From: a virus
Direction: 5' to 3' (one strand)
Length of the DNA stretch: 20,543 bases
Virus record (IMG/VR): IMGVR_UViG_3300042879_001539
Coordinates: 1 to 20,543 of that record
Shown here: positions 370 to 12,013 of the stretch, piece by piece
How the letters are laid out: the number at the start of each line of letters is the position of its first letter
How positions within the stretch are numbered: position 1 is the first letter of the stretch
Program-made: the position numbers and the translations under genes
Notes under the pieces: generated by a model
The model's input: only the letters and a program-made list of their open reading frames with translations
The model's database searches: none
Told to the model about the DNA's origin: nothing

Positions 370-377
370 TCCTTTGC

Positions 378-382
378 AGGAG
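378..382 (+). promoter_or_regulatory. Shine-Dalgarno AGGAG fixing the helicase start at ATG 392
   Basis: AGGAG ends 9 nt before ATG 392. A longer open frame starting at TTG 374 would place this motif inside the coding region, so ATG 392 is preferred. Confidence 0.65.
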
Positions 383-391
383 ATAACACGC

Positions 392-2248
392 ATGTACATT
401 CTTCACGTATCGTTAAGTGAGGATGGATCTTTCTTCCATCTTCGAGAGTTCATCGGCCAGCCTGACGGCCGAAGAGTTGTGTTCTATGGCCTAAGGCAAG
501 ACTGGCAGACGATGCCAGACATGAAGCGTCTCGACGACGGCTACATCCGCGTTGCAGCTAGCGACGTGTCAGTTGAGCGCATCGTCAAGTATCGTGAAAA
601 GGGCAATCAAGTCGAGCTCGATGATGATGCTCAAATCGTCTTCACCTACTGGCAAGCTGTCTTACAAGCATCACGCTTGTCTGCTGAATGCGTAGCCAAG
701 TTTAAGCTTGAAGGCGACGTGCCTGATGACCCAAACATTGACTTTGGTAGTCTTTCACCATATCAACGCGTTGGCTTGGTGAATGCTCTTAAGCTCCCAG
801 GCTACGGGCTATTCATGAAGCAAGGCACTGGCAAGACTGCAGTCGCTATTGCTGCAATATGCAATGATGCTAAGCAACGTGCTAAGCCCAAATACAGAGG
901 CATCATCGTATGCCCGCCCAATGTTCGCGCGAACTGGGCATCTGAGTTTAAGAAGTTCGCTACTCAAGAATGTGACATTCACATCTTACGTGGTGGACAG
1001 ATCACGCGCTTAACACAAATCATCAACGCCATCAAGTCACAAGCACCTATCTCTGTCATCATCTGCAACTACGAAACGTTGCAGCAGTCTTGGGACGCGT
1101 TGACTAACATCGAGTTTGACTATGCTGTTCTTGATGAAGGGCATATGATCAAAGCACATACCACTAAACGAAATCAGTACGCGCAGAAGCTCGGGCGCAA
1201 CGCTGCAAAGCGTCTTGTTCTTACTGGCACGCCTATAGCAAACAACGTCAATGACCTATTCACTCTATTCGAGTTCATGGGTCCTGGCACTAGTGGCTTT
1301 AGGTCATTCGATAGTTTTCGCAAGTACTTCGGCAAGTACAAGTCGTCAACGCACGGTCTTACTTTCGAAGAGGCACAGAACTTGCCTATCCTCAAAGACA
1401 AGCTGTCGCGTTACTCATTTATCATCTCAAAAGAAGAAGCATTGCCTTACTTGCCAGACAAGCTCTTTGACGTCGCTGAAGTAGAGATGACGCCTGACCA
1501 AGCCGAGGCTTACAATAAGCTGCGTGACGAACTCGTCATCGAGATAGAGAACACGCTTGAGACTGCAGAGAACGAAGCAGTCGCTGTCAACAACATTCTT
1601 ACACAGCTTCTTCGCTTGAGTCAAATTACTTCGTCGTTCCGCGTCATACCTCCGATCATTGATGAAGATGGCAACGTTACGTCGCCTCGTCGCGTGATAC
1701 CGTTTGAAACGAACATCAAAGCCGACTACATTGCCTCATTAGTCGAAGAGAAAGGACCAAACGACAAGACGATCATTTGGTCGAACTGGGTTGAGGATAT
1801 TCAAGCTATTAAACAGCGTCTAGAAGCACTTGGCGAGAGCCCTGTGGTATTCTATGGCGGCTCAAGTTTCGATGATCGTATTGAAGCTGAGAGGCGCTTT
1901 AATGAGGATCCATCCTGCCGTTGGTTCATTGGCAATCCACAAGCAGGTGGCACTGGATTGAACTTACTCGGGTTCCCGCCTAATGACCCTAATCGATTAA
2001 GTACGAATTGCACGCACGTCGTTTACATCTCACAGAACTGGTCAGCGATCCTTCGAGAGCAAAGCGAAGATCGTGCACATCGTCGAGGAACTCGCGTGCC
2101 AGTTCGTATCACCGAAGTAGTGGTGCCTAACACGATCGACACAGTCATCGCAACACGCGTTGCAAAGAAGCGACTCGATGCTGCATCGACGCTTGATATC
2201 AAAGACATCTTAAACGACATCCGCACAGGAGTCTTAACACAACTATGA
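392..2248 (+). CDS. SNF2-like superfamily II DNA helicase/translocase
   Basis: A 618-residue ATP-dependent DNA translocase of the SNF2/SWI2 branch of superfamily II. An N-terminal region of about 120 residues is followed by a Q-like motif (SPYQRVGL), Walker A (KQGTGKT, GTGKT at about 145-149), motif II DEGH (about 248-251), motif III LTGTPIANN, motif V GGTGLNLL and motif VI EDRAHRRGT (Arg at about 561, 564 and 565). These cover both RecA lobes. The ATG at 392 is set by AGGAG 9 nt upstream. Proteins of this type occur in many phage replication modules upstream of the primase, where roles in fork remodelling or recombination are assumed but rarely shown. The stop overlaps the next start as ATGA. 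No extra nuclease or zinc domain is visible. Confidence 0.95.
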   Translation: MYILHVSLSEDGSFFHLREFIGQPDGRRVVFYGLRQDWQTMPDMKRLDDGYIRVAASDVSVERIVKYREKGNQVELDDDAQIVFTYWQAVLQASRLSAECVAKFKLEGDVPDDPNIDFGSLSPYQRVGLVNALKLPGYGLFMKQGTGKTAVAIAAICNDAKQRAKPKYRGIIVCPPNVRANWASEFKKFATQECDIHILRGGQITRLTQIINAIKSQAPISVIICNYETLQQSWDALTNIEFDYAVLDEGHMIKAHTTKRNQYAQKLGRNAAKRLVLTGTPIANNVNDLFTLFEFMGPGTSGFRSFDSFRKYFGKYKSSTHGLTFEEAQNLPILKDKLSRYSFIISKEEALPYLPDKLFDVAEVEMTPDQAEAYNKLRDELVIEIENTLETAENEAVAVNNILTQLLRLSQITSSFRVIPPIIDEDGNVTSPRRVIPFETNIKADYIASLVEEKGPNDKTIIWSNWVEDIQAIKQRLEALGESPVVFYGGSSFDDRIEAERRFNEDPSCRWFIGNPQAGGTGLNLLGFPPNDPNRLSTNCTHVVYISQNWSAILREQSEDRAHRRGTRVPVRITEVVVPNTIDTVIATRVAKKRLDAASTLDIKDILNDIRTGVLTQL

Positions 2249-2873: not shown

Positions 2874-3336
2874 CTTTCATAATGACTTCATCAAGAAGTT
2901 GCATGAAGAAGCCGACATCGCTGAGCTTGCAGACATGGCTTATTCGATAAGTCAGATCATGCGAATGTTTGATGAGATCGAAAAGAAAACTCGTAACACG
3001 TATGAACTGGCTGAACGTCTGCTTTGCATGCTTTGGGCACAGCAAGGCGACTCTGATCCCATTCGTACTTCGCATTGCACCATCACCCCGCGTATCCGTA
3101 TGGCTGCGCAAATACCAAAGAAAGGAACTCCAGAGTATGAAGAACTAATGTCATCGTTAGGCATCGACACTGCGCTTCAGGCCACCGATGCCGTGCGTCC
3201 GCACTGGCCTGGCTTAGTCGATTATGTCACTGAGCTACTGACGAATGGGCGTCCACTCCCGCGCGGAGTTGACCCAAACAAAACCTACCCCGTATACGGG
3301 GTCACAATTCGACCAAAGAAAGGTATCACAGAATGA
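2812..3336 (+). CDS. Unknown phage protein with conserved-looking C-terminus (174 aa)
   Basis: Start ATG 2812 is preferred over TTG 2806 because TGAGGA (2797-2802) lies 9 nt upstream of the ATG. The N-terminal half (about residues 1-80) is helical and charged. The C-terminal half has a compact Pro/Gly-rich signature: PKKGTPEYEELMSSLG, then VRPHWPGLVDYVTELL, then LPRGVDPNKTYPVYGV. This arrangement looks like a conserved domain of phage replication operons, but I cannot name a family. It overlaps the previous gene by 62 nt and the next as ATGA, so it is firmly embedded in the operon upstream of the primase-helicase. Confidence 0.88.
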   Translation: MKEHNREYFNFAMKMLSEWTSFHNDFIKKLHEEADIAELADMAYSISQIMRMFDEIEKKTRNTYELAERLLCMLWAQQGDSDPIRTSHCTITPRIRMAAQIPKKGTPEYEELMSSLGIDTALQATDAVRPHWPGLVDYVTELLTNGRPLPRGVDPNKTYPVYGVTIRPKKGITE

Positions 3337-4136
3337 GTTCACTCTCAATTGTCAATAAAGACTTACCATCGTTCATGCAAGTTCAGGACACTGGCACTGA
3401 TGGCATGGGCCAGTTCATTATCCCACCAAGGATTAAGATCGTTCAGCCAGTGTCTCGAGGTGAGTACAAAGACAAGTTCTCTCCAGGAGACGCAGTGCTA
3501 GTTCCTCAGATGATTCGTATCGTGGGTCTTCAACTCGATGAAAAGAATCGACCGAAGAACGAAAGCGATTCGGTCATTTTCACTCCGCTCTTTTTCTTTC
3601 CTGAGTATTGCCTGTGGAATCCTCTCGAAGCAAAAGGCAGCATGCCGATGATACGTGAATCGTCATACGATCCGCAGTCGCATCTTGCAGTTAGAGCACG
3701 CGATCCTAAGCGTCGCTTTGAGCCATGCCCAGAGATGCCTGACAAACAGATGCGTTACGTCGAGCACCTTAACTTTGTGGTGCTGATACACGCTGACGGT
3801 TTGAACATGCTGCCGGCTATCATGTCGTTCTCTCGTGCTGAGCACCGAGCTGGATCAAACTTCATAGCTCTCATCAAGATGCGTATGGCACCGATGTATG
3901 GCTGCAAGTTTGTCTTCAAGACTCGTTATCGCGAGAATGACAAAGGTCAGTGGTACGGCATCGACATCGAGAACCCTCACGAGACGATCGGATCGTTCGT
4001 CGATGAGGAAACTTTCAAGTTCACTTCATATCAGTACACTGAGTTGAAGAAAGCACATGCTGATCGCTCGCTTCGAGTCGATCACGATCTTGAAGATGAA
4101 GTTATCGATGCAACCGCTATCAACCCTGAGCTGTAA
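3333..4136 (+). CDS. Unknown protein with acidic tail; candidate ssDNA-binding protein
   Basis: A 267-residue protein whose ATG overlaps the preceding stop (ATGA), with GAAAGG (3318-3323) 9 nt upstream. Visible features are a conserved-looking start (DLPSFMQ, then IPPRIKIVQPVSRGEY), beta-rich segments with many aromatics (FTPLFFFPEYCLWNP; HLNFVVLIHADG; GCKFVFKTRYREN), and a very acidic C-terminus (DHDLEDEVIDATAINPEL). Beta-rich aromatic cores plus an acidic tail are typical of phage single-stranded DNA-binding proteins such as T7 gp2.5, and the gene sits directly before the primase-helicase (TAATG overlap). The SSB role is an inference from these general features; no SSB motif was recognised. 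Confidence 0.9.
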   Translation: MSSLSIVNKDLPSFMQVQDTGTDGMGQFIIPPRIKIVQPVSRGEYKDKFSPGDAVLVPQMIRIVGLQLDEKNRPKNESDSVIFTPLFFFPEYCLWNPLEAKGSMPMIRESSYDPQSHLAVRARDPKRRFEPCPEMPDKQMRYVEHLNFVVLIHADGLNMLPAIMSFSRAEHRAGSNFIALIKMRMAPMYGCKFVFKTRYRENDKGQWYGIDIENPHETIGSFVDEETFKFTSYQYTELKKAHADRSLRVDHDLEDEVIDATAINPEL

Positions 4137-6922
4137 TGATTAATGTAATAGCCGAGCTTGAACGCATCGGCTGGGGTTTTAACTGGGCTGGAGACAGCGA
4201 AGTTCGCTGTCTCTGCCCTTTTCATAACGACTCATCACCCAGCTGTGCAATCAACGTAGAGAAACAACGATTCCGCTGCTGTACCGCAGGATGCGGAGCT
4301 AAAGGTGACATAGTCACGTTCTTAGCGGGTGCTTTAAAAAGCAATCGTGTAGACGTTAAAAAGGACTTATGCACGCGTTACGATCTTAACACAGATCGTG
4401 TCATCAAGGCTGATGTGATAGAAGACTACTTCTCTAACATCTGGGACGCAAAGCCTTTGTTGCACGAGCTATATGCTCGAGGAATGACAGACGATGACAT
4501 ACGCAAGTATCGAATAGGCACCAAAGATGGCAGAGTTACGATTCCTATCAAGAATGAATCAGGGTACTTTGTCAACATTCGTCTTTACTTGCCTGGTGCG
4601 CCTGGTAAAGACAAGTTTAGGAATCTTAAAGGGCGAGGTAAAGTCCGCATATTCCCGATAGAACAACTCAAGTATAACGAGATCTTGGTAGTCGGTGGTG
4701 AAGTTAAAGCTATCGTCGCTGCAAGACATCTCAATAAGCATGGGATAGGCGTAGTCACGTCTACTTTAGGCGAGAGCAACTGGGATCCTAGACTCACAAA
4801 CTACTTTAAAGATAAGCCAACGACAGTATGCTATGACATTGATGCTGAAGGCATTAAGTCGCAAGTGAATACGTGCAAGCATCTCTCGAGAGTTACCAAA
4901 GTCAGAACTGCGAAGCTTCCTCTTGATGCTAGCAAGTTCCCAAAAGGTGACATAAACGACTTCGTAGCGACAGACGGCGATCTCTTATCAGTGTATAAGA
5001 ACGCTAACGACTTCGTAGCGCCCAAGAAGCCGCATGAAGTAATGGAAAAGCCTAAGCGCGTTGACTTAGTTAATGCTATCAATGCGACAAGTGCTGGCAA
5101 GCGCGTACTTTTGACATGCACAGTGTCAACGCTTGACACATCACCATATGTGATACCTTCAGGTATTAAAGTTAAGTGCCCGCGTGACATCGAAGATTGT
5201 TCAGTATGCCCAGTGTTCTTAAACGATGAAGCGCATACGTACGAGATTGCAGCTGAATCACCGGCCATATTAGAAATGGTCGCTCGACCTAAAGCTAATC
5301 AGATGCCTGCTCTCAAAGAAGAGTTAGAGATACCGAAGCGATGTCAAGTTTGCGAGTTCGAGCCTGTGTCTTACTACAACGTTGAGGACGTGCGAATAAG
5401 TCCAAGACTTGAGATAACGAATCGCTCCATCGATCGATCGATGCAGCCTGCAATATGCATCGGGAAAGGTGTTGACTTGAATGAAACGTACGAGATGCTT
5501 GGACGTATGTATCCACATCCACAAACGCAGCAGTCAACACTTCTTATAAGCAAGTACAGGACAAGCCAAGACGCTTTAAGTTCCTATCGTTTAAAGGACC
5601 TTGATACGCTCTATAAATTCCAGCCAAAGGATTGGTCGTATAGTAGTCTTAAAGAAAAGTTGGATGCATTATACGACGATTTAGAGCGCAATGTAACCCG
5701 AATATATGGCCGTAGATCGATTCACTTAATGGTTGACCTGGCATATCACTCACCGCTGTTCCTTACGTTCGACCAAAAGAAAATCAAAGGCTGGGTTGAG
5801 GTACTTATTGTCGGTGACTCAGCACAAGGAAAGACAGAGACAACAATAAATCTTCAACGACATTATGGTCTTGGTGAAAAAGTTGAATGCAAGAATGCGA
5901 CAGTCGCTGGACTACTTGGAGGACTTCAGCAAATGGGGTCTCGATGGTTCGTTAGTTGGGGAGTTATACCAACACACGATAAGCGACTCGTTATTCTTGA
6001 AGAACTTAAAGGCACTTCAACTGAAGTCATCAGCAAACTAACTGATATGCGGTCTAGCGGTGTCGCTGAAATACCTAAGATTGAGAAACGACGTACACAC
6101 GCTCGTACACGTCTTATAGCCCTCTCAAACCCAAGGTCCGATAGCCCGATCGATCATTACAGCTATGGTGTCGATGCGATTAAAGAACTCATCGGCAGCC
6201 TAGAAGACGTGCGTCGATTCGATGCGTGCTTGTTAGTATCTGCAAAGGATGTATCACAGTCGCTCATCAATGATAAGCTGCCGATGAGCACGCCTGAATA
6301 CACGTCAGAAGACTGCCGGCGGCTAATACTTTGGGGCTGGACAGCGTCTGACATCATCTTCGAGCAAGAGTCCACTGACTTAGTTCTCGAGTTAAGCAGC
6401 AAGATGAGTAGCAAGTTCACTGACTCGATTCCTATCGTAGATCGAGGTTCAATGAGGTACAAGCTAGCACGTCTTGCAGCATCATTGGCGATACGAACGT
6501 TCTCGAATCAAGGCGAATCAGTCTTAGTGAGGCCATGTCACGTTCAATATGTACACGACTTCTTAGATGAAATCTACTCAAGCCGCACTTTTGGCTATCT
6601 TGACTTGACTCAATCGATTGAATCGCAAAGCAAGTTAAGCGACCCTGACACTGTTAGGCGCGCAATAGTCACTACGCCGTTCCCAAGAGACTTCGTACAG
6701 AACCTGCTATCAAGAATGTACATCGAGTTGCAGGACATTCAAGACTGGTGCGCCTGGGATAGACAGGCAGCTCAAGCGTTATTAAGCGTTCTTGTTAGGA
6801 AGCATGCGTTATCACGTAGGCAACGTGCGTACGTTAAGACGTCTGCTTTCATTTCGTTTCTTAAGGGCCTTGATGATCTTCCAGATAGGCCAGACCACAT
6901 CCCAGAAGGAGTAGAATTTTGA
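4136..6922 (+). CDS. Primase-helicase: CHC2 + TOPRIM primase fused to MCM-like AAA+ helicase
   Basis: A 928-residue two-enzyme protein. The N-terminus has a CHC2-type zinc finger (C27, H30, C48 or C49, C53) and a DnaG-type TOPRIM core (VVGGE with E189, then YDID with D233 and D235, then KGDINDF at about 269-275). Residues about 310-425 resemble the MCM N-terminal zinc/OB region (VIPSGIKVKC, CSVC, then IPKRCQVC). The C-terminal motor shows MCM-type features: Walker A GDSAQGKT (about 560-567), Walker B LVILEE (618-623), a region like the pre-sensor loop (RSSGVAEIPKIEKRR), sensor 1 RLIALSNP (about 659-666) and an arginine-finger-like DVRRFD (about 691-696). It would unwind DNA and prime lagging-strand synthesis. 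It is not a DnaB/T7 gp4-type RecA helicase: no such motifs follow the TOPRIM. A TAATG overlap couples it to the gene before. Confidence 0.92.
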   Translation: MINVIAELERIGWGFNWAGDSEVRCLCPFHNDSSPSCAINVEKQRFRCCTAGCGAKGDIVTFLAGALKSNRVDVKKDLCTRYDLNTDRVIKADVIEDYFSNIWDAKPLLHELYARGMTDDDIRKYRIGTKDGRVTIPIKNESGYFVNIRLYLPGAPGKDKFRNLKGRGKVRIFPIEQLKYNEILVVGGEVKAIVAARHLNKHGIGVVTSTLGESNWDPRLTNYFKDKPTTVCYDIDAEGIKSQVNTCKHLSRVTKVRTAKLPLDASKFPKGDINDFVATDGDLLSVYKNANDFVAPKKPHEVMEKPKRVDLVNAINATSAGKRVLLTCTVSTLDTSPYVIPSGIKVKCPRDIEDCSVCPVFLNDEAHTYEIAAESPAILEMVARPKANQMPALKEELEIPKRCQVCEFEPVSYYNVEDVRISPRLEITNRSIDRSMQPAICIGKGVDLNETYEMLGRMYPHPQTQQSTLLISKYRTSQDALSSYRLKDLDTLYKFQPKDWSYSSLKEKLDALYDDLERNVTRIYGRRSIHLMVDLAYHSPLFLTFDQKKIKGWVEVLIVGDSAQGKTETTINLQRHYGLGEKVECKNATVAGLLGGLQQMGSRWFVSWGVIPTHDKRLVILEELKGTSTEVISKLTDMRSSGVAEIPKIEKRRTHARTRLIALSNPRSDSPIDHYSYGVDAIKELIGSLEDVRRFDACLLVSAKDVSQSLINDKLPMSTPEYTSEDCRRLILWGWTASDIIFEQESTDLVLELSSKMSSKFTDSIPIVDRGSMRYKLARLAASLAIRTFSNQGESVLVRPCHVQYVHDFLDEIYSSRTFGYLDLTQSIESQSKLSDPDTVRRAIVTTPFPRDFVQNLLSRMYIELQDIQDWCAWDRQAAQALLSVLVRKHALSRRQRAYVKTSAFISFLKGLDDLPDRPDHIPEGVEF
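6906..6911 (+). promoter_or_regulatory. Shine-Dalgarno AAGGAG supporting a TTG start at 6919
   Basis: AAGGAG ends 7 nt before TTG 6919, which overlaps the primase-helicase stop. This strong site supports a non-ATG start for the MazG-like gene. Confidence 0.6.
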
Positions 6923-7341
6923 AAGAGCAATTAGAGCAAGTGAAAGAATTTCACGAGCACATGAACATCACGCCTCGACACGATTGGCCCAATTCATTTG
7001 AGCCAGCCTTGAACCAGCTCGGGCTGATGTTAGACGCTGAAGCGCGCGATGCACTCAAGTCGTATAACAATAGCAAAGACGTTCGCTGGCTTAGAGTTCA
7101 TTTGCTTATGGAAGAGCTAGCTGAGGTTATCATCGGGCTCGCCTCTTGTAAAAAGGTAGACGTACTAGACGGTCTAGCTGACTTGTCATACGTAACATTA
7201 GGCACGGCTGCCGTTTTCGAGTTGCCTTTGCCTGAAGCTTTCGAAGAAGTTCATCGAAGCAACATGACCAAGAAGCCATCAGACCAGCGTTGTTCAGACA
7301 AGACTGGTTACACACCTCCTAACTTGAAGAAGCTATTATGA
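6919..7341 (+). CDS. MazG-like nucleoside triphosphate pyrophosphohydrolase
   Basis: A 140-residue all-alpha NTP-PPase. The signature is EELAEV (E65, E66, E69) followed by DGLADLSYV (D84, D88), giving the four-acid metal site typical of MazG/DCTPP-type enzymes, and then AFEEVHRSNMTK, a phrase common in phage members. These enzymes hydrolyse (d)NTPs to the monophosphate plus pyrophosphate. The start is TTG 6919 (good AAGGAG 7 nt upstream); the end overlaps the next gene as ATGA. Family members range from house-cleaning to dCTP-specific enzymes. Its place before a methyltransferase, a thymidylate-synthase-family enzyme, a kinase and a deaminase suggests a role in pool remodelling, for example producing dCMP from dCTP. 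The substrate cannot be read from the sequence. Confidence 0.9.
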   Translation: MKEQLEQVKEFHEHMNITPRHDWPNSFEPALNQLGLMLDAEARDALKSYNNSKDVRWLRVHLLMEELAEVIIGLASCKKVDVLDGLADLSYVTLGTAAVFELPLPEAFEEVHRSNMTKKPSDQRCSDKTGYTPPNLKKLL

Positions 7342-8597
7342 AAGCTGTAGGCATTCACGTATTCGCAGGCGGGTTCTCTCATGGCGTCCAGCAAGTAGCC
7401 GATGTTACTGATCACTTAGAGGTTCATGGGTTTGGATTAGAGACGGCGAAGCAAATGTGCAATGTAGCCGTTCATAATTCACCCGCATCTGAGTGGCCTG
7501 ACATAACTGCTGACTTCGCGTTTGGCAATCCTCGTTGCACTGGTTTCAGCACTGTGACTGCAGGTTACGACGACCGCATACACGGTCCTTTCGCTGCGTG
7601 CACTAGGGACATTTGGGAGTTCATGAACTACTGCACTGGGCGGTACCCGATCTTTGCTTGGGAGTCGGTTCAACAAGCTTATTCGACAGGCAGGCCGCTC
7701 ATCGATATGCTAGTTGAAAAGGTTGCAGCTCAAGGCTATCGTGTCGCGCACTTATTCGTGAATGCTGCAAGTTTAGGCAATGCTCAATATCGTAAGCGTT
7801 ACTTTTTCGTTGCTTACGATAAGTCGAAGAACTTCAACATCTCACCTATGACTTTGCCAGAGTACGCTCCAACGCTGTATGATGCTATTTGGCATATGCG
7901 AGATCGGCAAGATATGACGTTGACAAAGCTATCTCCTGACGAACAAGCATGCTTAAGTCGACTGCCTAACGGCTGGGACCTTAACATGCTCGCGCAATAC
8001 GACTGTGATAATTTGCCCGAACGACTGCAAGATACTTGGCTTCTTCGTAACAGCGGTATGCCATTCAGCATGCACTGCGTCAAGAGGCTATCCTGGCAGC
8101 GTCCGTGCCCAACCATCTTCTCATCAGCTGGTCGCTTTATTCATCCTGAACACAATCGTGGATTGACACATGAAGAGTTAGCGACTATAATGGGACTGCC
8201 GATAGTGCCGCTAGGCCAAGACCCTGTTGCTCAAATTGCAAAAGGTGTTTGCCCATGCGTTGGAGAGTGGGTAGCGACTCAGGCAATTCATTATCTTAAC
8301 GATGCCTGGGGCAGCGAAGATTGGGAAGCAACTTATCAAGGTTCGCTTGGGCAATGGAAGACGGCTCAAGCTGACGGAAAGCTAGAAAAGATCTTCAATT
8401 TAACCTCTTACCTTCAAACCCGTGATAGAGATTTTAAAGATGAAACACTACCTAAGTATCGATTCAATGTGGACCCACACACTGGAGAACTTATTCGCCC
8501 ATGGTCAGGAGTCAGTAAGTCGCATCGGAAAAACAGTGGCACTACACGGCTACGTAGCACGCTTAGCGTCGACGAGAGCGACATGGTTGACGAATAG
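7338..8597 (+). CDS. Divergent cytosine-C5 DNA methyltransferase-like protein
   Basis: A 419-residue protein with the ordered motifs of C5-cytosine methyltransferases. Motif I is IHVFAGGFSHGV (about 6-17). Motif IV is GNPRCTGFS with the nucleophile C67. Motif VI is WESV with E109, where ENV is usual. Motif VIII is QYRKR (150-154). Motif IX is RPCPTI with a downstream GLTHEELATIMGLP, and motif X is like IAKGVCPCVGEWVA (300-313). The canonical PPCQ is changed to PRCT. The space for a target-recognition domain (about 165-250) is short. The catalytic Cys, Glu and QxRxR remain, so activity is plausible but substrate and sequence specificity are uncertain. The last 53 residues are basic and low in complexity and overlap the next gene out of frame by 158 nt. 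No cognate restriction enzyme is nearby. Confidence 0.88.
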   Translation: MKAVGIHVFAGGFSHGVQQVADVTDHLEVHGFGLETAKQMCNVAVHNSPASEWPDITADFAFGNPRCTGFSTVTAGYDDRIHGPFAACTRDIWEFMNYCTGRYPIFAWESVQQAYSTGRPLIDMLVEKVAAQGYRVAHLFVNAASLGNAQYRKRYFFVAYDKSKNFNISPMTLPEYAPTLYDAIWHMRDRQDMTLTKLSPDEQACLSRLPNGWDLNMLAQYDCDNLPERLQDTWLLRNSGMPFSMHCVKRLSWQRPCPTIFSSAGRFIHPEHNRGLTHEELATIMGLPIVPLGQDPVAQIAKGVCPCVGEWVATQAIHYLNDAWGSEDWEATYQGSLGQWKTAQADGKLEKIFNLTSYLQTRDRDFKDETLPKYRFNVDPHTGELIRPWSGVSKSHRKNSGTTRLRSTLSVDESDMVDE

Positions 8598-9357
8598 CCG
8601 TCGTAACCTTGATCCTCGTTATGCAGCTGGTGAATTCTTTTGGTACTTTAACCCCACTGGTGACTTGAATCACATCAAGCACTACGCACCGCAGTATGAA
8701 AAGTTCGCTAACGATGGCACGGTGCTAGGCGCATACGGCCCAAGAATACGCACTGCAATGACTGCTCTTTACTCGCTGCTTGTAGACTCGCCGAATACAA
8801 GACGCGCTGTGCTGCCGCTGTTTCTTCACACTGATCTTGAGCGTGCTGATTGGGCGAATGACGTGCCGTGCACGTTGTCTTACACATTCATGATCGTTAA
8901 TAATGAACTGTGCATGATAGCGAACATGCGATCAAATGATGTATGGCTTGGGCTGCCGTATGACGTGTTTGTCAACACTGCAATTCAGCGCTTTCTTGCT
9001 GGTGCTCTTCGTATCAAAGCTGGATGGTATCAGCATCAAGTCGCTGACCTTCATATCTACGGCCAAAACATCAAAGCAGCTAAAGAAGCGCTGCAGGAAG
9101 GCTTCCCTGCTGACGACCCGTATTGTGTATGGTCCGATGAACAAGCTGATGAGAACTTCTCGCACTTGTTTGACGCCATACAGCATGAAGCTCGATATCG
9201 ATTACATAGTGTTCGCGATGATATTAAAGCCATCACGTCGCCGACCGTTCGTTCGTTGTTACAATGTGTTCTTGACGTTCCCATAGACTCGGAGATCTTA
9301 GAAGATGCTTATAATCGAAGGCACAGATTGCGTAGGAAAGACAACACTAGCTCATAA
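8440..9357 (+). CDS. Thymidylate synthase family enzyme, possibly dCMP-specific
   Basis: A 305-residue member of the thymidylate synthase/dCMP hydroxymethylase family (start ATG 8440; GTG 8422 has no Shine-Dalgarno). Conserved elements are YAAGEFFWYF (E65, W68), HYAPQY, NTRRAV (R121, R122), the nucleophile C144 in VPCTLSYTF, phosphate-binding R164-S165, D167, and sugar-binding H205 and Y207 (LHIYGQN). In E. coli ThyA an Asn at position 177 reads the uracil ring; the equivalent residue here is D175 in GLPYDVF. Asp at this site is the known hallmark of dCMP-acting relatives such as T4 dCMP hydroxymethylase. The product could therefore be 5-hydroxymethyl- or 5-methyl-dCMP rather than dTMP. The gene overlaps the methyltransferase by 158 nt and the kinase by 53 nt. 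Confidence 0.92.
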   Translation: MKHYLSIDSMWTHTLENLFAHGQESVSRIGKTVALHGYVARLASTRATWLTNSRRNLDPRYAAGEFFWYFNPTGDLNHIKHYAPQYEKFANDGTVLGAYGPRIRTAMTALYSLLVDSPNTRRAVLPLFLHTDLERADWANDVPCTLSYTFMIVNNELCMIANMRSNDVWLGLPYDVFVNTAIQRFLAGALRIKAGWYQHQVADLHIYGQNIKAAKEALQEGFPADDPYCVWSDEQADENFSHLFDAIQHEARYRLHSVRDDIKAITSPTVRSLLQCVLDVPIDSEILEDAYNRRHRLRRKDNTSS

Positions 9358-9829
9358 GTTAGCTAAAAAGCTAGGCATGGTGTATCAACATCTTGGTCCT
9401 CTTCCTGATACTTGGAGCGATGACGATTATATTCGTCTAGCTTCCACAAACGCCGTGCGAGACCGCTATCACCTTAGCGAGGTTGCATACTCTGCAACAC
9501 TGAAGAACCGGTCTTGCAAGATCAAGGACGTTAAAGTATTGCACGCTACACTCATGCTGAAGTACATGGCCTTTACTGTCATTATCACGGCCGATGGCTC
9601 GGTGATACGCAGTAGGTTCGATGAAAAGCGCGAGCTTTTTACTTATGACGAAGTGTCGTTGGTTAACGAGACATTCAAGTTGATGGGCTACTATGCTGAC
9701 TACAAGATTCACGTTTCAAATGACCACCCTGACATCATCGATAGCATCATCGATAAGGTCTGCAGCGCTTATGAAAGGAAAAAGAAATGGATCCAGGACT
9801 GGAGCGATATAATGCGAAACTTGAAGTAA
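9305..9829 (+). CDS. P-loop deoxynucleoside monophosphate kinase (thymidylate kinase-like)
   Basis: A 174-residue P-loop kinase. The N-terminus MLIIEGTDCVGKTT holds Walker A (GTDCVGKT, about 6-13). RDRYHLSEVAY (about 52-62) matches the DRY/DRF substrate-binding motif of thymidylate and deoxynucleoside kinases. A later Arg-rich segment (SVIRSRFDEKRELF) may form the lid. GGAG (9291-9294) lies 10 nt before ATG 9305, inside the end of the preceding synthase gene. It probably phosphorylates the monophosphate made by that synthase (dTMP or a 5-substituted dCMP), in the same logical place as T4 gp1. The exact substrate is unknown. It overlaps the deaminase by 43 nt. Confidence 0.88.
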   Translation: MLIIEGTDCVGKTTLAHKLAKKLGMVYQHLGPLPDTWSDDDYIRLASTNAVRDRYHLSEVAYSATLKNRSCKIKDVKVLHATLMLKYMAFTVIITADGSVIRSRFDEKRELFTYDEVSLVNETFKLMGYYADYKIHVSNDHPDIIDSIIDKVCSAYERKKKWIQDWSDIMRNLK

Positions 9830-10278
9830 TGGTCAAGTTCGCAAAAGAAATCGCATGGCTATCAAAATGCAGGCGTCTTAACGTCGGAGCAGTGATCGTT
9901 GATCACGGGCTAAGAGACATCTTAGCGTTCGGCTATAACGGGCCTGCAAGCGGAAGAGATAACTCCTCTTGCAGAGACGTGACAGGGTCATGCGGCTGCA
10001 TACACGCTGAGGCTAATGCGTTATTGAAGCTCGACGATAAGACTACGCCCTGTTACATCATAACTACGCATTCGCCTTGCGAACTCTGCGCTGGGCTTAT
10101 ACTTAATTCAAGCAACATCACCGATGTTATTTCCATACACCCGTACCGGGTGCCTAGCATCATACCAGTAACATACTTTGGAGATCACTATGAAATTATC
10201 GAACGGCGGAAGATTATGTACGACGCTCGACGATCTGCCATGTTTGCAGAAGAGCCAGCGTCTATACCTCGACTTTGA
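9787..10278 (+). CDS. dCMP deaminase family protein
   Basis: A 163-residue zinc-dependent deaminase. The catalytic signature is CIHAEANALL (H73, E75) and SPCELC (C98, C101), the HAE plus PCxxC zinc site of cytidine/dCMP deaminases. The upstream Cys cluster (SSCRDVTGSCGC) resembles the second zinc site of T4-type dCMP deaminases. The N-terminal half carries LNVGAVIVD and GYNGPASG, which are standard for the family. AAAGGAA (9774-9780) lies 6 nt before ATG 9787. It would convert dCMP to dUMP for dTMP synthesis. In T4 it works alongside dCMP hydroxymethylase, and the same neighbours are seen here. The last 89 nt overlap the polymerase gene. Confidence 0.93.
   Translation: MDPGLERYNAKLEVMVKFAKEIAWLSKCRRLNVGAVIVDHGLRDILAFGYNGPASGRDNSSCRDVTGSCGCIHAEANALLKLDDKTTPCYIITTHSPCELCAGLILNSSNITDVISIHPYRVPSIIPVTYFGDHYEIIERRKIMYDARRSAMFAEEPASIPRL
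10180..10183 (+). promoter_or_regulatory. Shine-Dalgarno GGAG fixing the polymerase start at ATG 10190
   Basis: GGAG ends 6 nt before ATG 10190. The upstream TTG at 10178 would place the motif within the coding region, so ATG 10190 is preferred. Confidence 0.6.
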
Positions 10279-12013
10279 GACTACAAGCGGTGACACTAAA
10301 CTCGATTCTTTAAACGTCTGGAAGAACTGTTACATATCTGGCATATGCGTCACAGCCGATGATTGCCCGGATGCGTGGTACGTGCCAGTATGCCATCACA
10401 GAGGTGGCAATTTGCCATGGGAACCAGTTTATCAATGGCTTGAAGAGGTCGTAAATAGCTGTGACACATGGATAAATCATAACATTAAGTACGACATGCA
10501 TGTGTTCAGCAATAACCTTGGCGTTGAAGTAAAGTGCAATGTCATCGATACGCTAGCACATGCTAAGATTCTTAACTCTGATAGGATGAGATATGGTCTC
10601 GACTTCTTGTCTAAAGATTGGTTGAACCATGATATCAGCCATCACGAAAAAGAAATGAAGCCATATCTCAAAGGAAATAAGGACTTTGGTTGGATTCCAG
10701 TCGATGTCATGGCCCCATACGGCACTGATGACGTGTTCGTAACGCGTAAGTTGCATAAGTATCTTATCGACAACATCCCTGCAGAGTGCTTAAGAGTCTG
10801 TGAGCTTGAGAATAAGATCACTAAAGCGCTTTATCACATCGAAAGATCGGGAATGAACATCGACGTGATGAACACGATGGCAGTTCAGCTTAAGACTCTT
10901 CACCGCATGTCTCAAATAGACGATGAATTAGAGACTCTTATCGGCTATAGCATCAAAGCAAACTCGGATGAGGATTGTTTTGATGTTATCTGCAACACCC
11001 ACGGGCTGCCAGTCATTGCGTTCACCGATACCGGCGCACCTTCATTCGATAAACATGCTCTTAAGTCGTACATGTCGTATCCTAATGCTCCAGTCGATGT
11101 CTTAAAACTGATGCTAGAGTATAGGCGCTTAGCTACATTTAACGGCACGTTCTTAACTACCTACTTAGAGCTTAATATCGATGGAGTGCTACATCCATCG
11201 TATAACGCGAGTGTCCGAACTGGACGCATGAGCTGCATGAAACCAAACATGCAGCAGCTTATGATAGAAGCTAAAGAACTTATCGTTCCTCGTGAAGGCC
11301 ACATCTTGTTATCGTGTGATTATTCACAGATCGAGTATCGCACTATCGTGCACTACATAAAAGATCCTGATGCCATTGCAGCATATCACGCAAACCCAGA
11401 TCAAGACTATCATCAGTGGGTTGCAGATCTGTGCGGCATCAAGCGTAAGCCTGCAAAGACTGTTAACTTTTTGATGGGCTATGGTGGCGGGAAGGCTCGC
11501 TTGATTAGTGCGCTTAGTGTTGACCCTGACGTCGTGGAAAGTATCAATGCGACAGACCCGCTCGAATTTAAGCGCTTAGCTGAAGCTCGTGGCAATGACA
11601 TCTATAACACCTATCACGCGAAATTGCCTAACCTTCGCGTCACTTCACGCGAGGCTGAGATGCTGTGTAGGCAACGGGGGTATGTTCGTAACTTATATGG
11701 ACGCCGCCGTCACTTACCATCGGATCACGCGCGTAAAGCTTTTAATTCTGCAAACCAATCATCAGCTGCTGACCTTATGAAAGACAGGCTGATTGCATTG
11801 ATGGAGGCAGGCTACGAAGTGATAGGCAGCGTGCACGATGAACTTATCATCACAATGCCTAAAGAAGAGTACAACGAAGAGGTTCGCAAGGACATTGCTC
11901 GCATACTCGAGTCGCCGTCAATCGATTTACGCGTGCCTATTCGAGTTGGGGTAGGCTATAGCGAAAAAAGCTGGCTAGATGCTAGTTCAAATTCAAAACC
12001 TGTGTACTACTGA
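10190..12013 (+). CDS. Family A DNA polymerase with 3'-5' exonuclease
   Basis: A 607-residue replicative PolA-type polymerase. Exonuclease motifs: Exo I LDFET (D28, E30), Exo II NIKYD (N98, D102), Exo III YGTDD (Y177, D181). Polymerase motifs: A SCDYSQIEYR (D377), B RKPAKTVNFLMGYGGG with Phe427 at the place of E. coli Pol I F762, and C SVHDELI (D550). No 5'-3' exonuclease domain is present, as expected for phage replicative members. Motif A has Tyr where Leu is usual (IEYR for IELR). The start ATG 10190 has GGAG 6 nt upstream and overlaps the deaminase by 89 nt. It is the last gene of the plus-strand unit. With the primase-helicase it forms the core of an autonomous replisome. Confidence 0.96.
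   Translation: MKLSNGGRLCTTLDDLPCLQKSQRLYLDFETTSGDTKLDSLNVWKNCYISGICVTADDCPDAWYVPVCHHRGGNLPWEPVYQWLEEVVNSCDTWINHNIKYDMHVFSNNLGVEVKCNVIDTLAHAKILNSDRMRYGLDFLSKDWLNHDISHHEKEMKPYLKGNKDFGWIPVDVMAPYGTDDVFVTRKLHKYLIDNIPAECLRVCELENKITKALYHIERSGMNIDVMNTMAVQLKTLHRMSQIDDELETLIGYSIKANSDEDCFDVICNTHGLPVIAFTDTGAPSFDKHALKSYMSYPNAPVDVLKLMLEYRRLATFNGTFLTTYLELNIDGVLHPSYNASVRTGRMSCMKPNMQQLMIEAKELIVPREGHILLSCDYSQIEYRTIVHYIKDPDAIAAYHANPDQDYHQWVADLCGIKRKPAKTVNFLMGYGGGKARLISALSVDPDVVESINATDPLEFKRLAEARGNDIYNTYHAKLPNLRVTSREAEMLCRQRGYVRNLYGRRRHLPSDHARKAFNSANQSSAADLMKDRLIALMEAGYEVIGSVHDELIITMPKEEYNEEVRKDIARILESPSIDLRVPIRVGVGYSEKSWLDASSNSKPVYY

Follow-up and report, generated by a model that had tools for sequence, protein, structure and literature searches.

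In T7 gp4 and in the DnaB/DnaG system the primase rides a 5'-3' helicase ring on the lagging strand. Bacterial mobile elements also contain a different pairing, that of an MCM helicase with an archaeo-eukaryotic-type primase (AEP). MCM proteins in phages as well as AEP-MCM fusions have already been described (PMC5862659; PMC4538821), and BcMCM, an AEP-MCM fusion encoded by a prophage of Bacillus cereus (McGeoch and Bell 2005; Samuels 2009; Sanchez-Berrondo 2012), is credited in PMC4538821 with 3'-5' unwinding and primase/polymerase activity. No description of a TOPRIM-MCM fusion was found in the literature searched, and an earlier description is possible. We know of no biochemistry of any TOPRIM-MCM protein. 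DnaG and MCM are parts of two different replication systems of life, and in the locus presented here both types appear in one polypeptide.

The window, i.e., the whole stretch of DNA analysed, comprises 20,543 nucleotides of the IMG/VR virus record IMGVR_UViG_3300042879_001539. The fusion occupies a single intact frame of 928 residues with no internal stop, in the following setting:

374..2248, + strand: SNF2/SF2 helicase of the same replication module (PF00176, 2e-36)
3333..4136, + strand: Pam3 gp34-like gene directly upstream, with a stop/start overlap with the fusion (PF23977, 1.3e-13)
4136..6922, + strand: DnaG-type primase/MCM helicase fusion, 928 residues (profiles, predicted structure, Foldseek)
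10178..12013, + strand: family A DNA polymerase with 3'-5' exonuclease (PF00476, 4.8e-47; PF01612, 1.2e-10)

The ATG of the fusion overlaps the preceding stop codon (TAATG). Full-length homologues, 91-92% identical, are present in four independent contigs, and the homologue in the environmental phage MW202657 is about 44-45% identical to the window protein. Purifying selection is strong in every domain of the fusion (dN/dS about 0.01-0.04 where computable), with synonymous sites near saturation and little nonsynonymous change. Because homologues at both distances exist and dN/dS is low, the fusion ORF is not a chance one. The family A DNA polymerase is its likely replisome partner. The genes located at 6919-10278 encode a MazG-like pyrophosphohydrolase, a C5 cytosine methylase, a thymidylate synthase family protein, a thymidylate kinase-like protein, and a dCMP deaminase, a cluster that suggests a modified-pyrimidine pathway; in MW202657 a 'pyrimidine hmase' is annotated in the corresponding stretch. 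As called, the methylase ORF (7338-8597) and the thymidylate synthase ORF (8422-9357) overlap by ~175 bases, and the true start of the latter probably lies later than 8422.

The C-terminal half of the fusion, judged from profile searches together with a predicted structure, is a true MCM. Its features are listed below, with conservation counted among 54 relatives:

5048..5575, + strand: MCM-like N-terminal OB domain with the zinc site C348/C355/C358/C403 (conservation, strand pattern, Foldseek)
5633..6580, + strand: MCM-type AAA+ motor, P-loop core and lid (profile and Foldseek)
5813..5836, + strand: Walker A GDSAQGKT, residues 560-567 (G560, D561, and K566 in 54/54)
5903..5974, + strand: helix-2 insert (predicted structure, alignment to MCM)
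5987..6004, + strand: Walker B LVILEE, residues 618-623 (E623 in 54/54)
6062..6100, + strand: presensor-1 beta-hairpin, residues 643-646/652-655, with K648 (model, conservation)
6128..6130, + strand: sensor-1 Asn665 (54/54)
6215..6217, + strand: arginine finger R694 in RRFD, cf. SRFD of MCM (54/54)
6455..6457, + strand: sensor-2 arginine R774 (49/54, alignment to MCM6)
6644..6865, + strand: C-terminal winged-helix domain (predicted H-H-H-E-E)

With a helicase-only profile built from the 54 relatives, MCM proteins were the only ones among the 60 PDB sequence matches listed for the C-terminal 620 residues (best 4r7y, 2.6e-17), and a whole-protein profile of 62 relatives, run against all PDB sequences, likewise matched the C-terminal part to MCM proteins only. 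When the predicted structure was searched with Foldseek, all 50 matches listed were MCM chains (best 2.6e-24), and they span most of the MCM length, the N-tier included. A sequence-only reading of this DNA had called the half MCM-like and would have been refuted by a placement in DnaB/RecA, SF3, or another AAA+ clade; both kinds of search place it with MCM proteins only and thus support that reading. The four motifs on which it had relied were all found, GDSAQGKT and LVILEE as listed, ARTRLIALSNP at residues 656-666, and DVRRFDACLLV at 691-701. Its MCM-like Cys-rich OB region was also borne out by Foldseek and by a beta-rich region in the model carrying the four cysteines, which are kept in 49-54 of the 54 relatives at a spacing unlike that of classical MCM. 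The helix-2 insert and the presensor-1 hairpin, proposed there as structural checks, are both present in the predicted structure; the former is modelled as a helix (590-593), a hairpin (595-600/603-608), and a second helix (610-613) that align with the MCM insert, and position 648 of the latter is basic (K/R) in 49/54 relatives. The AlphaFold model of the fusion has a pLDDT of 88.6 and a pTM of 0.66, so the placement of the primase relative to the helicase is uncertain.

Two positions vary within the family. At Walker B position 622 Asp is found in 35 and Glu in 19 of the 54 relatives, and in Walker A the GD and K of the MCM signature GDPGxAKS are kept while the Ala position is Gly in 52/54 and Ala in 2/54, a signature detail that was not taken as decisive for membership. 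The Pfam MCM P-loop match (3e-5) was dropped as proof, because PF00493 exceeds its cut-off in E. coli and in every control genome; it is the PDB profile and fold searches that establish the assignment to MCM. The same behaviour of the Pfam model, which matches proteins in all control genomes including those of MCM-less bacteria, and weak AAA_5 matches in 2/54 members could be cited for another helix-2-insert AAA+ ATPase of the ComM/Mg-chelatase, MoxR, McrB, or BrxL type, but as every listed PDB-profile and Foldseek match of the helicase is an MCM, with the N-tier included in the fold search, such an identity seems exceedingly improbable. For the AEP-linked form of the helicase (see below), the nearest BLAST relatives beyond the family are annotated halovirus MCMs.

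The N-terminal third of the fusion matches DnaG primases (2au3, 8e-26, in the 62-relative profile search against PDB) and by homology its primase would be of the DnaG type, with the following features:

4196..4327, + strand: CHC2 zinc ribbon with C27, H30, C48, and C53 (Pfam PF01807, 7.5e-11, residues 23-87)
4397..4675, + strand: DnaG N-terminal RNA-polymerase subdomain with conserved R115, R149, and K160 (PDB DnaG profile matches, conservation)
4676..5005, + strand: TOPRIM domain in which D234, D236, D272, and D275 are kept (profile, conservation)
4694..4708, + strand: GGEVK in place of the canonical EGExD, with Glu replaced by G187, the +4 Asp by K191, and E189 kept (alignment, conservation)

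Of the CHC2 and TOPRIM core proposed from the sequence alone, the zinc ribbon and the TOPRIM domain can both be recognised, as can the DnaG N-subdomain, but the TOPRIM domain lacks its canonical glutamate, a point that the sequence-only reading had overlooked. The stretch reads GGEVKA in the window protein, and in the PDB alignment position 187 is paired with the E in VEGYFD of Aquifex DnaG. This glutamate is reportedly essential in T7 primase, a result of Lee and Richardson (2005) that is cited in PMC9198812. Among the 123 members with the column filled, position 187 is E in 67, G in 45, and A in 11, i.e., the glutamate is replaced by Gly or Ala in 56/123, the window protein included, and the +4 Asp (position 191) is replaced by Lys in 51/123; an alignment-independent regex count of the motif agrees in broad terms. 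At least seven changes between E and not-E are required at position 187 on the full tree. E189 is present in 123/123 members and D234 in 122/122 with a residue at that column, and the CHC2 zinc ribbon is kept in most TOPRIM-type members.

With the TOPRIM Glu lost, the +2 Glu and the DxD kept, and the sequence under purifying selection, primase activity of the window protein is plausible, not assured. A working MCM could instead carry a dead TOPRIM domain retained to bind the template, hand off primers, or load the ring, with primers supplied by the host DnaG or by transcription. The frequent replacements at positions 187 and 191 speak for such a protein, as do the two relatives L122 and L130, in which TOPRIM has been lost and the N-terminal part is reduced to a short remnant, and the precedent of human Twinkle, whose primase domain has lost its activity (PMC7231222). 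However, Twinkle has lost most of its zinc ligands and the fusion keeps them, along with R149, K160, E189, D234, D236, and D272; selection on residues 1-296 is purifying, which argues against simple decay of the primase half, and no other known primase was found in 16 related records. We consider a dead primase domain rather unlikely. The TOPRIM fold is also used by topoisomerases and OLD nucleases, and its altered glutamate might hint at a nuclease or another phosphotransferase, but here the domain is preceded by a CHC2 zinc ribbon and a DnaG N-subdomain, and its DnaG matches are specific, which makes such a function very improbable.

Among the fetched loci, 151 distinct ORFs contain this helicase: 127 with a DnaG/TOPRIM N-terminus, 19 with an AEP, and 5 with neither. 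Two of the AEP entries, L095 and L096, repeat L011 and L010 in shorter form, which leaves at most 17 separate AEP records. Three of the five primase-less ORFs start at contig ends; in the other two, L122 (5626-7884) and L130 (5698-7884), the same MCM follows a short remnant resembling the DnaG N-subdomain, and their contigs gave no CHC2, AEP, or PolA match. The AEP was confirmed by Pfam DNA_primase_S in phage vB_BboS-125, a B. velezensis plasmid, L104, and L107; in L164 the match is sub-threshold (0.0064), and the call for L174 relies on a profile built in this analysis and on DxD and SGxKGxH motifs that can be seen in its sequence. Mapping the primase type onto the helicase tree takes three changes, and the AU test rejects a topology in which the AEP forms make up one clade (p=0.00055); the careful tree was made without the long-branch rows L012 and L159. 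Since a single origin of the AEP form is rejected, at least two exchanges of the primase have taken place, and the helicase is an interchangeable platform for TOPRIM and AEP primases.

The TOPRIM-MCM fusions are a large family without a name. Homologues that match over most or the whole of the length are present in Microbacterium Krampusvirus, Bacillus BSP7/BSTP, Arthrobacter Wollypog, Weizmannia Youna2, Paenibacillus SV21, and MW202657, as well as in many environmental phages. The rarity of the design implied by the sequence-only reading did not hold, the fusion being present in dozens of sequenced phages. A search of genome contigs with the TOPRIM-MCM profile, using one pattern, returned no relative, which speaks only weakly for absence, and a scan of genomes for AEP-MCM returned only Sutcliffiella and Brevibacillus. 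GenBank labels the TOPRIM-MCM fusions 'DNA primase' or 'primase/helicase', with no mention of MCM. The label 'DNA primase small subunit', carried by L010, L014, and BSTP5, covers AEP and TOPRIM fusions alike, so product names do not reveal the primase type: it is correct for vB_BboS-125 and misleading for two candidates rejected as true AEPs, Youna2, in which TOPRIM was found, and BSTP5, whose match to the query starts at residue 22. The helicase half corresponds to phrog_18685, listed in PHROGs as of unknown function, so annotation would improve widely.

The role of the fusion in replication was considered together with 16 related records, among them eight named phage genome records (that of SV21 partial). 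In these relatives of the window, which is itself a fragment, no DnaB_C and no Prim-Pol match was detected, AEP occurs in the AEP fusion only, and there is at most one CHC2 per record, which lies inside the fusion in those records whose annotation was used to check its position. PolA is present in 11/16. It is also worth mentioning that polA of BSP7 is broken into two ORFs, between which lies a group I intron-like match (22428-22707; RF00028, E 1.5e-10, 48.5 bits, just below the gathering value of 50), and that polA of Youna2 is split in a similar place. The fusion is quite probably the phage's combined and self-contained primase-helicase, with a true MCM motor that presumably runs 3'-5' and a primase half that could prime the lagging strand for PolA. 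That it acts in repair or recombination-dependent replication, with the host DnaB borrowed, might be suggested by its location among nucleotide-metabolism and SNF2-helicase genes and by the use of host DnaB by some phages, but most relatives have it alongside PolA in a replication module, and neither DnaB_C nor another primase was detected in the 16 records, so a non-replicative role appears improbable.

As a combined primase-helicase the fusion would work as follows. By homology, the MCM half would form a hexamer, and the ring, as expected from MCM biology, would translocate 3'-5' on the leading-strand template. The N-terminal 300 residues (zinc ribbon, basic subdomain, and TOPRIM) occupy the place of the MCM A-domain, which would put six primase modules on the N-tier, the fork-facing side in known MCMs. 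In that position the modules could supply the phage PolA with primers on the excluded lagging strand. The weakest step concerns the active site: in this clade the TOPRIM glutamate is Gly, and the likeliest reading is that the invariant E189 may form a rearranged centre with D234 and D236. The full proposal, a DnaG-class primase on a leading-strand 3'-5' MCM ring that primes without the canonical Glu, on a platform repeatedly exchanging unrelated primases, is offered as tentative.

The presence of the fusion in culturable phages (BSP7 of Bacillus subtilis, Krampus of Microbacterium) makes the combination of a TOPRIM primase with an opposite-strand helicase testable, and the missing glutamate offers a test of how far the TOPRIM active site can vary. 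That TOPRIM and AEP were repeatedly swapped on a single helicase shows directly that one primase can take the place of another unrelated to it, which bears on the origin of the difference between bacteria and archaea.

With T7 gp4 and Twinkle the window protein shares a primase of zinc ribbon and TOPRIM that precedes a helicase, which in the window protein too would be hexameric, and 1nui was matched in the PDB profile search (1.7e-8). Their motor, however, has the RecA fold, whereas here it is an AAA+ MCM, for which the opposite polarity and strand are expected; Pfam gave no DnaB_C match in the window protein. Archaeal, eukaryotic, and halovirus MCMs (HFTV1, Humcor1) resemble its helicase half in having an AAA+ motor with the helix-2 insert, the presensor-1 hairpin, and the arginine finger, together with a Zn-OB N-tier and a winged helix, but they have no fused primase and possess the Walker A Ala that the window protein lacks; the MCM A-domain is not seen in the window protein, and the primase is in its place. 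The proteins of Krampusvirus (gp47), BSP7/BSTP, Wollypog, Youna2, and SV21 labelled 'DNA primase' are TOPRIM-MCM fusions whose homology to the window protein extends over most or the whole of the length, at about 21-29% identity. The EGExD motif is intact in Krampus, BSP7, Wollypog, and Youna2; MW202657 has GGExK and SV21 AGExD. Like BcMCM, the window protein belongs to a bacterial mobile element and combines an MCM with a primase on its N-terminal side in a single chain, and the helicase half of its family is also paired with an AEP, in vB_BboS-125 and the B. velezensis plasmid. BcMCM, compared here by description, differs in having an AEP primase in contrast to the DnaG/TOPRIM of the window protein, in which Pfam and profile searches gave no AEP match. 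The fusion is best read as a variant of the BcMCM-type AEP-MCM fusions, a sister architecture with a common helicase type.
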